Origin: Methanoculleus marisnigri JR1
Lineage (GTDB): Archaea > Halobacteriota > Methanomicrobia > Methanomicrobiales > Methanoculleaceae
Assembly (NCBI RefSeq): GCF_000015825.1
Contig: NC_009051.1
Span: forward strand, 1-64,000
Reading direction: 5' to 3'
Length of the DNA: 64,000 nt
Shown: in pieces, positions 45,156-48,770 of the stretch
How positions within the stretch are numbered: the first letter of the stretch is position 1
Layout: each line of letters begins with the position of its first letter
Translations under genes and position numbers: made by a program
The notes under the pieces: generated by a model
The model's database searches: none
Told to the model about the DNA's origin: nothing
The model's input: only the letters and a program-made list of their open reading frames with translations

Positions 45156-45824
45156 ATGTCGGATACCACCTGGCTGCAGCGTGCAGCATCGGCCCTCGCG
45201 GCGTTCCGGGAGAGCGACCGCCCGCTCGTCTCGCTCACCCGCGACCTCCTCTGGGTCGTCGCGGTCGTGGGGGGTATCGCCCTTCTTCTCTACCTCGTCG
45301 CCGGCACCTGGCCGGCGGTGGTCACGATCGAGTCGGAGAGCATGGTCCCGAACATGAACGTCGGCGACCTGGTGCTCGTCGTCGACGAGGACCGGTTCGG
45401 CAACCTGGTGACCTGGGCCGAGGGGCAGCGGACGGGTCAATCGTCGTTTGGGGATTACGGCAACGTGATCGTCTACCGGCCGAACGGCGCCGACTCCGTA
45501 AACCCGATCATCCATCGGGCGATGACCTACGTCGATACCGCCGCCGTGGTGGAGTCGGGGCTCGGGGCTTACTACGATGACCCGCACGGCGGCTACATCA
45601 CCAGAGGCGACAACAACCCCTACACCGACCAGCCGAACCTCCGGATCTCCGGCATCGGGGTGATCGAGCCGGTGAAGAAGGAGTGGATTGTCGGCAAAGC
45701 CCTCGTCGCGGTGCCGCTCGTCGGCTACCTGCCCCTGCACCTCGCCGAGTTCGCAGTCGTCGTCATCCTGGTCATCCTCGTCCACGACTTTGTCCTTGCG
45801 CGCAAAAAAGAGAAAGAAGAATAA
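45156..45824 (+). CDS. Signal peptidase I, archaeal type
   Basis: A 222-residue membrane protease that removes signal peptides. An N-terminal helix (about 30-50) precedes the catalytic Ser62 in ESESMVPNM. The general base is His120 (NPIIHRAM) rather than Lys, as in archaeal and ER enzymes, and Asp152/Asp158 lie in RGDNNPYTD. A second hydrophobic helix near the C-terminus (about 195-213) is followed by a charged tail. Confidence 0.93.
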   Translation: MSDTTWLQRAASALAAFRESDRPLVSLTRDLLWVVAVVGGIALLLYLVAGTWPAVVTIESESMVPNMNVGDLVLVVDEDRFGNLVTWAEGQRTGQSSFGDYGNVIVYRPNGADSVNPIIHRAMTYVDTAAVVESGLGAYYDDPHGGYITRGDNNPYTDQPNLRISGIGVIEPVKKEWIVGKALVAVPLVGYLPLHLAEFAVVVILVILVHDFVLARKKEKEE

Positions 45825-45849: not shown

Positions 45850-46938
45850 ATGCCGTACTCGCTGCATACGCTGCTCGATGACACACTCGCCGGCCACCGG
45901 CTCACGGAAGAGGAAGCGGTCCGCCTCCTTGCGACGCGCGACCGGGGCGTCTGGGAAATCGCCGCCGCCGCGGACGAACTCCGCGAGCGGAAAGTCGGCA
46001 ACGTCGTCACCTACGTAAGGAACCAGAACATCCACGTCACCAACATCTGCAAGAACCTCTGCGGGTTCTGCGGGTTCGGGCGCCGGGCGGACGATCCGGA
46101 AGCGTTCTACGACGATACCGATGCGATCCGGGAGAAGGCACGGGCGGCCGCGGCGCGAAACGTCACCGAGATCTGCCTCCTCTCCGGCGTCCACCCGGAC
46201 TACACCCTCGACTCCTACGTCGACCTCATCTCCTGCGTGCGGGAGGAGGCGCCCGGCACGGACATCCACACGGCAAGCCCCGACGAGATCGCCTGGGCGG
46301 CGAAACAGAGCGGCGTCTCGACGAAAGAGGCGATCGAGCGCCTGATCGATGCGGGTCTCGGAACCCTGCAGGGGACCGCGGCCGAGATCCTGGTGGACGA
46401 CGTTCGGCGGGTGATCTGCCCGGCCAAGTGCGACACGGCGACGTGGGTCCGGATCATCAAGGAGGCACATCGTCTCGGGCTCCGGTCGACGGCGACGATC
46501 ATGTACGGCTCCTCTGAGAGCGCGGGTGATCGTGCCCGGCACCTTGCGATCCTCCGCGAGATCCAGGATGAGACCGGCGGGTTCACCGAACTGGTTCCGC
46601 TCTCCTTTCTCCACGAGAACACCGCCATCTACCAGAAGGGTCTCGCCCCCGCGGGCGCCACCGGCCGCGAAGACCTCCTGCTCTTTGCAGTCGCGCGGCT
46701 CTTCCTCGACAACTTCGACCACATCCAGATCTCCTGGGGCAAGGTCGGGACGAAGATGGCAGAGCTCGGGCTTCTCTCCGGCGGCGACGACCTCGGCGGG
46801 ACGATGTTCTGCGACGACGTCAGCACGGATGCCGGCGGCGAGGGCGCCGACTATCTCGATCCTGCGGAGATGCAACGGATCGCCGAGGATCTCGGCCGGA
46901 CGCTCCGCCAGCGGACGACGACCTACGAGTTAGTGTGA
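45850..46938 (+). CDS. cofH: CofH, F420 precursor (FO) synthase subunit 2, copy 1
   Basis: Radical SAM enzyme that, with CofG, joins tyrosine-derived hydroxybenzyl to the ribityl-uracil precursor to make the deazaflavin of coenzyme F420. The 362-residue protein has the cluster motif CKNLCGFC (about 62-69). The family ends HIQISWGKVGTKMAE and DLGGTMFCDD are intact. It lies 25 bases after the signal peptidase gene. Its first 150 bases are nearly identical to those of the second copy at 47667. Confidence 0.94.
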   Translation: MPYSLHTLLDDTLAGHRLTEEEAVRLLATRDRGVWEIAAAADELRERKVGNVVTYVRNQNIHVTNICKNLCGFCGFGRRADDPEAFYDDTDAIREKARAAAARNVTEICLLSGVHPDYTLDSYVDLISCVREEAPGTDIHTASPDEIAWAAKQSGVSTKEAIERLIDAGLGTLQGTAAEILVDDVRRVICPAKCDTATWVRIIKEAHRLGLRSTATIMYGSSESAGDRARHLAILREIQDETGGFTELVPLSFLHENTAIYQKGLAPAGATGREDLLLFAVARLFLDNFDHIQISWGKVGTKMAELGLLSGGDDLGGTMFCDDVSTDAGGEGADYLDPAEMQRIAEDLGRTLRQRTTTYELV

Positions 46939-46957
46939 AGTGCAAGGCCATATCACC

Positions 46958-47345
46958 GTCCGCAACCGTTCCCGCACGCGAAGAGCGCGAAGTTCGGTAT
47001 AGTTACCTGTACCTCCCCTTCGCACCTTCAGTGCCCGAACTCCAGCCCGTAGGGCAGTGGCATTTCGCGTGAGGCTGCATTGTTATCCCCAGCAAGTAAC
47101 TCGCGCGAAGCCGCGAAGGACGCGAAGATCAGTAGAGGGTTACCGGGAACTCCCCTTCACACCTAACGGTGCTCATGCCCCGGTTCTACGAACCGTCGCA
47201 CTTCGCGGCTTCGCGTTCTTCGCGTGAGGCCGTTTCGGTGCTCAACCTGACCCTCTCACGCGAAGACCTGGTTGGTTGAGCGTTACGCTCCTTCGCACCT
47301 GCGGTGCTCACGCTCCGTTCATTGCGGAACCCCGTATTTCGCGTG
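46958..47345. repeat. Degenerate repeat region between the cofH copies
   Basis: Three imperfect copies of a unit containing CCTTCGCACCTGCGGTGCTC-like words lie at about 47016, 47151 and 47288. They are interspersed with CGCGAAG / TTCGCGTGAGGC words that can pair with one another (for example 47102-47127 with 47201-47224). No ORF here looks coding. It resembles a REP-type intergenic repeat family and would form strong hairpins. Confidence 0.65.
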
Positions 47346-47363
47346 AAACGTTCTCCATGCCCG

Positions 47364-47650
47364 TCACATCCGGTTCGGGGCCTCCCTCCCCGGCATCCCG
47401 ATCTCGACGCGGCGCTGCACCGCCGGCAGGTTCGCCGCCTTCACCCCGGCGTCCATCAGGGAATCCGGGTCGTCGAGGGTCGCCTCTTCCGAGGCGCCGA
47501 CAACCGTCGCAGGAACCCCGGCGTTCGCGAGCGCCTCGATATCGAACCCCCCTGTCCCGATTATCCCTCGTCGGCCGCCCGGGCCCTCAGGCTGCACCAC
47601 CGCCGCGCGCACCCGAAGGTTCTTGTCCTGACCGCGCCAGATCAACGTAT
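47364..47650 (-). pseudogene. C-terminal fragment of an unidentified gene
   Basis: On the minus strand an open frame ending at 47364 shows strong G/C third-position bias and protein-like sequence (IIGTGGFDIEALANAGVP, SLMDAGVKAANLPAVQRR). Upstream it runs into the antisense of cofH copy 2 without a convincing start, so it looks like the last 85-95 codons of a truncated gene. I do not recognise the family. A short intact gene starting at an internal GTG is the alternative. Confidence 0.5.
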
Positions 47651-47666
47651 CCCACACGGGGAACGG

Positions 47667-48770
47667 ATGAAGTGTATGCCGCCGCCACTGCGAGAGATAC
47701 TTGACGACGTGCTTGCCGGCCACCGGCTCACGGAAGAGGAGGCGGTCCGCCTCCTTGCGACGCGCGACCGGGGCGTCTGGGAAATTGCCGCCGCCGCGAA
47801 CGAACTCCGCGAGCGGAAAGTCGGCAACGTCGTCACCTACGTCCGCAACCAGAACATCAACGTCACCAACCTCTGCGTGAACGCCTGCGGGTTTTGCGGA
47901 TTCTCCCGAAAGCCGGGCGACGCCGATGCCTTCTTTTACGGCGAGACCGCGGTGCGGGGGAAGGCGCGGGAGGCGCGCGAGCGCGGCGTTACCGAGGTCT
48001 GCACGGTGAGCGGGCTCCACCCGGAGTTCGACGTCCAATCCTACGCCGAGATCTACTCCTGGATACGGGACGAGGTTCCGGGAGTACATATCCACGCGAG
48101 CAACCCGATGGAGGTGGCATATGCCGCGAGAAGGAGCGGCATCTCCACCCGGGAAGTGATGGAACTGATGAGGGGCGCGGGTCTCTCCACCCTCTGCGGT
48201 ACCGCGGCCGAGATCCTGGTCGACGATGTTCGTCGGGTGATCTGTCCCGACAAGATTGACACGGGGTCCTGGGCCCGGATCATCAGAGAGGCGCATGGTC
48301 TCGGCATCCGGTCGACGGCGACGATCATGTACGGCCACTGCGAGAGCGAGGCGGATCGCGCCCGGCATCTTAACATCCTCCGCGAGATCCAGGACGAGAC
48401 CCACGGGTTCACGGAGTTCGTGCCCCTCTCGTTCATCCACAAAAATACCCCTCTCTACCGGGCGGGGCTCGCCCGGGCGGGGGCGACCGGCAGAGAAGAC
48501 CTCCTGATGTTTGCGGTCGCCCGGCTCTTCCTCGACAACTTCGACCACATCCAGGCTTCCTGGGTGAAGGTCGGGACGAAGATGGCGGAGATGGCGCTTC
48601 TTTCGGGTGCAGACGACCTCGGCGGGACGCTCTTCGAGGAGAGCATATCCCGGGAAGCGGGCGCCCGGGATACCGATTATCTGGATCCGGCCGAGATGCG
48701 GCGGATGGCCGAGGATCTCGGCCGGGTACTCCGCCAGCGGACGACGACCTATGCTCTTCTTCCGGGCTGA
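47667..48770 (+). CDS. cofH: CofH, F420 precursor (FO) synthase subunit 2, copy 2
   Basis: A 367-residue paralog of 45850-46938 with radical SAM motif CVNACGFC. The N-terminal 45 residues are almost identical to copy 1 (AGHRLTEEEAVRLLATRDRG onward). The rest is clearly more diverged (EVPGVHIHASNP against EAPGTDIHTASP, DIDT/DTAT changes). Both keep HIQ(A/I)SW.KVGTKMAE. ATG 47667 follows GGGGAACGG; ATG 47676 is possible. Different substrate preference is possible, but one may simply be a spare. Confidence 0.93.
   Translation: MKCMPPPLREILDDVLAGHRLTEEEAVRLLATRDRGVWEIAAAANELRERKVGNVVTYVRNQNINVTNLCVNACGFCGFSRKPGDADAFFYGETAVRGKAREARERGVTEVCTVSGLHPEFDVQSYAEIYSWIRDEVPGVHIHASNPMEVAYAARRSGISTREVMELMRGAGLSTLCGTAAEILVDDVRRVICPDKIDTGSWARIIREAHGLGIRSTATIMYGHCESEADRARHLNILREIQDETHGFTEFVPLSFIHKNTPLYRAGLARAGATGREDLLMFAVARLFLDNFDHIQASWVKVGTKMAEMALLSGADDLGGTLFEESISREAGARDTDYLDPAEMRRMAEDLGRVLRQRTTTYALLPG

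Follow-up and report, generated by a model that had tools for sequence, protein, structure and literature searches.

The window analysed here is the first 64,000 bases of the single 2,478,101-base contig of Methanoculleus marisnigri JR1. It holds two genes of the CofH family, cofH1 and cofH2 (Table 1), both of which score above the curated cut-off (374) of the NCBIfam model TIGR03551. The two genes lie on the plus strand, cofH2 about 740 bases 3' of cofH1, and their alignment is gap-free, with a fixed offset of 1826.

Table 1. Genes, segments and spacer elements of the cofH1/cofH2 locus; positions are those of the window.
Feature	Coordinates	Strand	Evidence
Signal peptidase I gene, upstream neighbour of cofH1; marker of the H1-type upstream flank	45156..45824	+	TIGR02228; flank alignments
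cofH1, divergent CofH-family radical SAM paralog, 362 aa	45850..46938	+	NCBIfam TIGR03551, 420 bits
Putative converted segment, cofH1 codons 14-62	45889..46035 (core 45889-46016)	+	
Putative conversion-free zone, cofH1 codons 63-175, with the [4Fe-4S] Cys motif and most H1-specific residues	46036..46374	+	
Second, weaker putative exchange zone, cofH1 codons ~177-280	46378..46689	+	Sliding trees; one fixed difference in codons 181-300
Part of the spacer, with dispersed repeats (CGCGAAG-type) and inverted repeats	46939..47350	.	Inverted repeat I3; genome matches
DUF1805 pseudogene, 3' part only	47367..47570 (end ~47570)	-	Pfam PF08827, E=1.5e-4, below cut-off; intact orthologs
cofH2, canonical CofH, 364 aa	47676..48770	+	NCBIfam TIGR03551, 470 bits; residues of other methanogens' CofH kept
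Putative converted segment, cofH2 codons 14-62	47715..47861 (core 47715-47842)	+	
Second, weaker putative exchange zone, cofH2 codons ~177-280	48204..48515	+	Sliding trees; residue comparison

The spacer between the two genes measures 740 bases, as against about 445 in many relatives, and the hairpin repeats and the truncated gene that the earlier note had placed in it are both present. Bases 46972-46992 and 47209-47229 form an inverted repeat of 90% complementarity, and the repeats between about 46970 and 47350 are dispersed genome-wide, the spacer having 70 further matches in the genome, among them an array near 1,429,800-1,430,400 with a 46-base period. The truncated gene is the DUF1805 remnant. 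An intact DUF1805 gene of 104 aa occupies the same place in relatives and is conserved between cofH1 and cofH2 across Methanoculleus; alignment to two of these loci (L031, L044) indicates that here its start region was lost in a deletion of ~119 nt at ~47597, and that a small gap breaks the frame.

Codons 14-62 of cofH1 and cofH2 are 95.2% identical at the nucleotide level compared to 73.4% in the remainder of the gene (56% in codons 1-13 and 73% in codons 63-362), and equal divergence along the whole length, which was looked for, is thus not what the pair displays. The near-identity of about 150 bases at the start of both copies, noticed earlier from the letters of the sequence, proved real: the core of the segment carries three mismatches in 128 nt (at 45915, 45960 and 45973), and none of 20,000 codon shuffles produced a run as long as the observed 42 codons with at most three mismatches (P<=5e-5). 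The left edge is abrupt at codon 13/14, with 17 mismatches in the first 39 nt, whereas the right edge is stepped, the initial differences falling at codons 56-57 and the next at codon 62, after which the copies diverge throughout; the breakpoint anticipated near codon 55 was right for this pair (56-62). Silent sites follow the same pattern, as codons for the same amino acid are identical in 42 of 46 cases in the segment and in 137 of 194 elsewhere (Fisher P=0.0019, fixed-region test). For the M. marisnigri pair alone, a permutation test of maximal fragments at silent sites fell short of significance (P=0.15). As baseline silent identity is ~0.7 and a second exchange zone is present, that test is weak for single genomes, and the silent-site case rests instead on the fixed-region test and on trees.

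To place the pair in context, we compared cofH pairs from Methanoculleus and the rest of the order Methanomicrobiales (L-numbers denote loci and G-numbers genomes of this sample), averaging identities over 26 Methanoculleus genomes. In codons 14-62, H1 and H2 of the same genome share 0.900 of nucleotides, 0.841 of fourfold sites and 0.89 of amino acids, while H1 and H2 of different genomes share 0.835 of nucleotides and 0.701 of fourfold sites; orthologs in this segment reach 0.847 for H1 (fourfold 0.719) and 0.838 for H2 (fourfold 0.691). In codons 63-200, paralogs within a genome are at 0.673 against 0.83-0.84 for orthologs. Paralog identity exceeds ortholog identity in codons 14-62, but not in codons 63-180 or 301-362. 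Over codons 14-62, H1 matches the H2 of its own genome better than it matches other H2 copies on average in 24 of the 26 genomes (P=1e-5); the count is 15 for codons 63-180 and 23 for codons 181-300. In 12 of the 26 the H1 segment is closer to its own paralog than to even the nearest H1 ortholog, which happens in none for the gene body. Where the copies are adjacent, segment identity is elevated (0.82-0.99) in almost every Methanoculleus genome, L118 (0.70) being the exception, and homogenisation of codons 14-62 extends to silent sites in most species of the genus, although several of the silent-site Fisher tests made genome by genome were not significant.

Could the copies be alike simply because this part of the protein, or a nucleotide signal within the reading frame, is under strong purifying selection? 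The peptides are indeed nearly the same within genomes. However, orthologs diverge in the segment (nucleotides 0.84, amino acids 0.86) as fast as in the rest of the gene (0.83-0.84 and 0.84-0.86), and constraint therefore cannot account for the likeness of the paralogs. Nor would constraint explain fourfold sites that agree at 0.84 within genomes and 0.70 between them, and the pairs of Methanoregula and Methanolinea, at 0.50-0.70 in the segment and overall no higher than in their gene bodies, show no homogenisation. A search of the cofH locus for an RNA element gave no Rfam match. Strong conservation of the segment in single-copy cofH genes of distant species would, according to the earlier note, speak against conversion; neither among orthologs nor in the other genera does the segment stand out as conserved, and we regard purifying selection as an extremely improbable cause.

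The gene body tells of an old duplication. Its tree has one H1/H2 split in Methanoculleus (100/100), the order-wide protein tree likewise has a single split, and the H1 clade is supported at 100/100 in gene-body trees. As the gene body gives one split both in the genus and across the order, the duplication is old and, judging from these trees, predates the order Methanomicrobiales; the DUF1805 gene conserved between the copies across the genus also makes it older than the species compared. The tree of codons 14-62 is of another kind: in Methanoculleus these codons cluster by genome, with 20-21 changes of H1/H2 label compared to 19 when labels are shuffled. Forcing one H1 clade on the segment costs 217 lnL units (AU P=0.025), the modest P-value and the weak resolution of the tree being due to the shortness of the segment (147 nt). 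A sliding scan in 40-codon windows, counting label changes, gave 13-19 changes for window starts 9-25, exactly one for starts 41-169, 3-12 for starts 177-257 and again one for starts 289-321. Discordance is restricted to the tract, whose edges are sharp in both sliding trees and binned identities, and the second zone at codons ~177-280 agrees with the binned identities and with the 23 of 26 genomes in which H1 is closer to its own H2 than to the others on average over codons 181-300. On the strength of the scan we place exchange at codons ~10-62 and, more weakly, at ~177-280, with none over codons 65-176 or 289-362.

Taken by itself, the M. marisnigri pair would look like the product of one recent event, as had been suggested earlier, and one conversion, either there or in the Methanoculleus ancestor, might be thought to explain the whole pattern. 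Yet well-supported branches of the segment tree force at least 10 label changes, and silent identity is higher within than between genomes in many lineages, which leaves a single event scarcely any credence. Exchange of the segment between species by lateral transfer rather than between paralogs is very unlikely as well: some placements in the segment tree conflict with species relations, and some transfer may be superimposed, but the H2 closest to the H1 segment is the copy of the same genome in 15 of 26 genomes. We are highly confident, instead, that cofH1 and cofH2 are ancient tandem paralogs in which codons 14-62 are kept alike within each genome by recurrent non-reciprocal homologous recombination, i.e., gene conversion leading to concerted evolution. 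Gene conversion, as first suspected for this pair, thus stands on silent sites, on paralog identity exceeding ortholog identity and on gene trees, while the notion of one recent event gives way to recurrence across the genus.

In M. marisnigri the H1 segment is closer to its own paralog (0.952) than to the nearest H1 ortholog (0.939) or the best other H2 (0.891), and by these identities its conversion is later than the split from the nearest sampled species. The M. marisnigri H2 groups with H1 sequences in the segment tree (94/96), hinting at H1 as the donor and H2 as the recipient, but comparison with the relatives gives a mixed picture, and we claim neither direction.

In four genomes (G001, G019, G022 and G023) cofH1 and cofH2 lie apart, in G001 at G001:C1:226378 and 1510162, and these four pairs have segment identities of 0.73-0.81 versus a mean of 0.90 (P=0.002). 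We considered linkage as the cause of homogenisation and rejected it, as these low pairs are closely related by the protein tree and the adjacent L118 is also unhomogenised; what is left is a correlation that rests on perhaps one or two independent cases. Since the L118 genes are adjacent and their segment is nonetheless unhomogenised, adjacency is not sufficient. At L118 (genome G029) several 12-codon bins between codons 206 and 277 are 97-100% identical, and the exchange zone there seems to have shifted position. Tandem cofH pairs occur outside the Methanomicrobiales too, in other methanogen families (L177-L183), with segment identities of 0.62-0.77 and second copies that bear signatures of their own.

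Two species of Methanoculleus, represented by genomes G003 (a single contig; L112) and G007 (L045, L128), have one cofH only, and it is a chimera. Codons 1-13 are H1-type (L112 is 100% identical to the H1 of L044) and the gene from codon 63 is H2-type, at 0.90-0.96 to the nearest H2; the upstream flank is that of H1 and the downstream flank that of H2. Neither a second cofH or H1 anywhere in the two genomes nor the cofH-linked DUF1805 gene that relatives carry between the copies was found. The chimeras are best explained by deletion through recombination inside the shared segment. The body tree joins L112 to L044, where both genes persist, and places L045 elsewhere, so that two separate deletions probably took place; a sisterhood of the chimeras is disfavoured (AU P=0.042). 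Collapse of the two copies during assembly would mimic such a deletion, as short near-identical repeats can collapse and the draft assembly of G007 runs to about 30 contigs. But G003 is a single contig, both genomes lack H1 and the cofH-linked DUF1805 gene, and in L044, the sister of L112, no identical run exceeds 55 nt, which is too short to collapse easily. We consider collapse unlikely, and least unlikely for the draft genome G007.

At 36 positions the H1 and H2 residue sets of Methanoculleus do not overlap. Codons 63-180 hold 24 of these positions and codons 301-362 eight; codons 1-13, 14-62 and 181-300 have one each, and the last is codon 364. The lone difference in codons 14-62, His versus Asn, is at codon 62, the right edge of the segment, and the lone difference in 181-300 is at codon 297; 33 of the 36 fall in the exchange-free codons 65-176 or 289-362. 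Many of these paralog-specific residues are fixed across the order. By an informal criterion, in cofH2 numbering, canonical CofH residues are N62, M145, V297, E322, S323 and I324, and cofH2 carries all six, as does the CofH of other methanogens. cofH1 instead has H62, D145, G297, D322, D323 and V324, which are invariant or almost invariant order-wide. An order-wide cofH1 signature unlike canonical CofH comprises H62, K68, G77, L111, D145, Q174, G297 and D322. By its residues cofH1 is a divergent CofH subfamily, and its function may differ from that of canonical CofH. More tentatively, it is conceivable, though we would not put it at even chances, that CofH1 is no redundant CofH but a distinct radical SAM enzyme of the Methanomicrobiales, acting on a substrate or yielding a product of its own and marked by the signature H62/K68/D145/Q174/G297/D322, and that selection for function, not the mechanics of recombination, sets the borders of conversion. 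If so, the conversion map would outline the specificity-determining part of the enzyme.

We propose that a homologous recombinase of the RadA type would drive strand invasion between the adjacent copies, where pairing would be possible because the segment and parts of codons 177-280 still hold long enough runs of identity. As codons 62-175 and 297-333 hold residues that distinguish H1 from H2, conversion reaching into them would presumably be purged by selection, and falling identity, by hampering pairing, would act in the same direction. Where the paired copies instead underwent a crossover or single-strand annealing, the 1.5-1.8 kb between them would be lost, leaving a chimera with an H1 head and an H2 body like those of the two species.

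In practical terms, a Methanoculleus tree or primer that relies on the 5' end of cofH would mix the paralogs and mislead. The conversion-free zones direct attention to the residues by which CofH1 and CofH2 differ. Our literature searches on cofH listed no report of its conversion, and with cofH a gene for the biosynthesis of a cofactor, coenzyme F420, would join the small number of prokaryotic genes known for concerted evolution, here over a sub-gene tract that ends at paralog-specific residues and at which deletion products have apparently arisen in nature. A survey described 26 long-lasting concertedly evolving prokaryotic gene families, tuf included (PMC6053082), which share with cofH the recurrent conversion between paralogs. 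The main text of that survey makes no mention of cofH, and a whole-gene method would likely miss it, since the effect covers a small part of the gene. The two tuf genes on the Salmonella chromosome are a system in which conversion between paralogs is studied by experiment (PMC5485169); there, conversion is reported to begin at any point of the gene and to be confined by the gene bounds, whereas in cofH it is confined to zones inside the gene. A further parallel comes from the same order, where recurrent conversion of mtrA-1/mtrA-2 has been documented (PMC4632066). Like cofH, mtrA comprises ancient tandem paralogs of methanogens, M. marisnigri and M. bourgensis included, that are homogenised in one part and distinct in another, and the same types of test, paralog identity exceeding ortholog identity and clustering by species in trees, apply to both. 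In mtrA, however, a whole domain is homogenised over whole orders, while in cofH it is a 49-codon segment of one gene in one genus; a second and weaker zone, tract borders that coincide with paralog-specific residues, and the deletion chimeras also set cofH apart.
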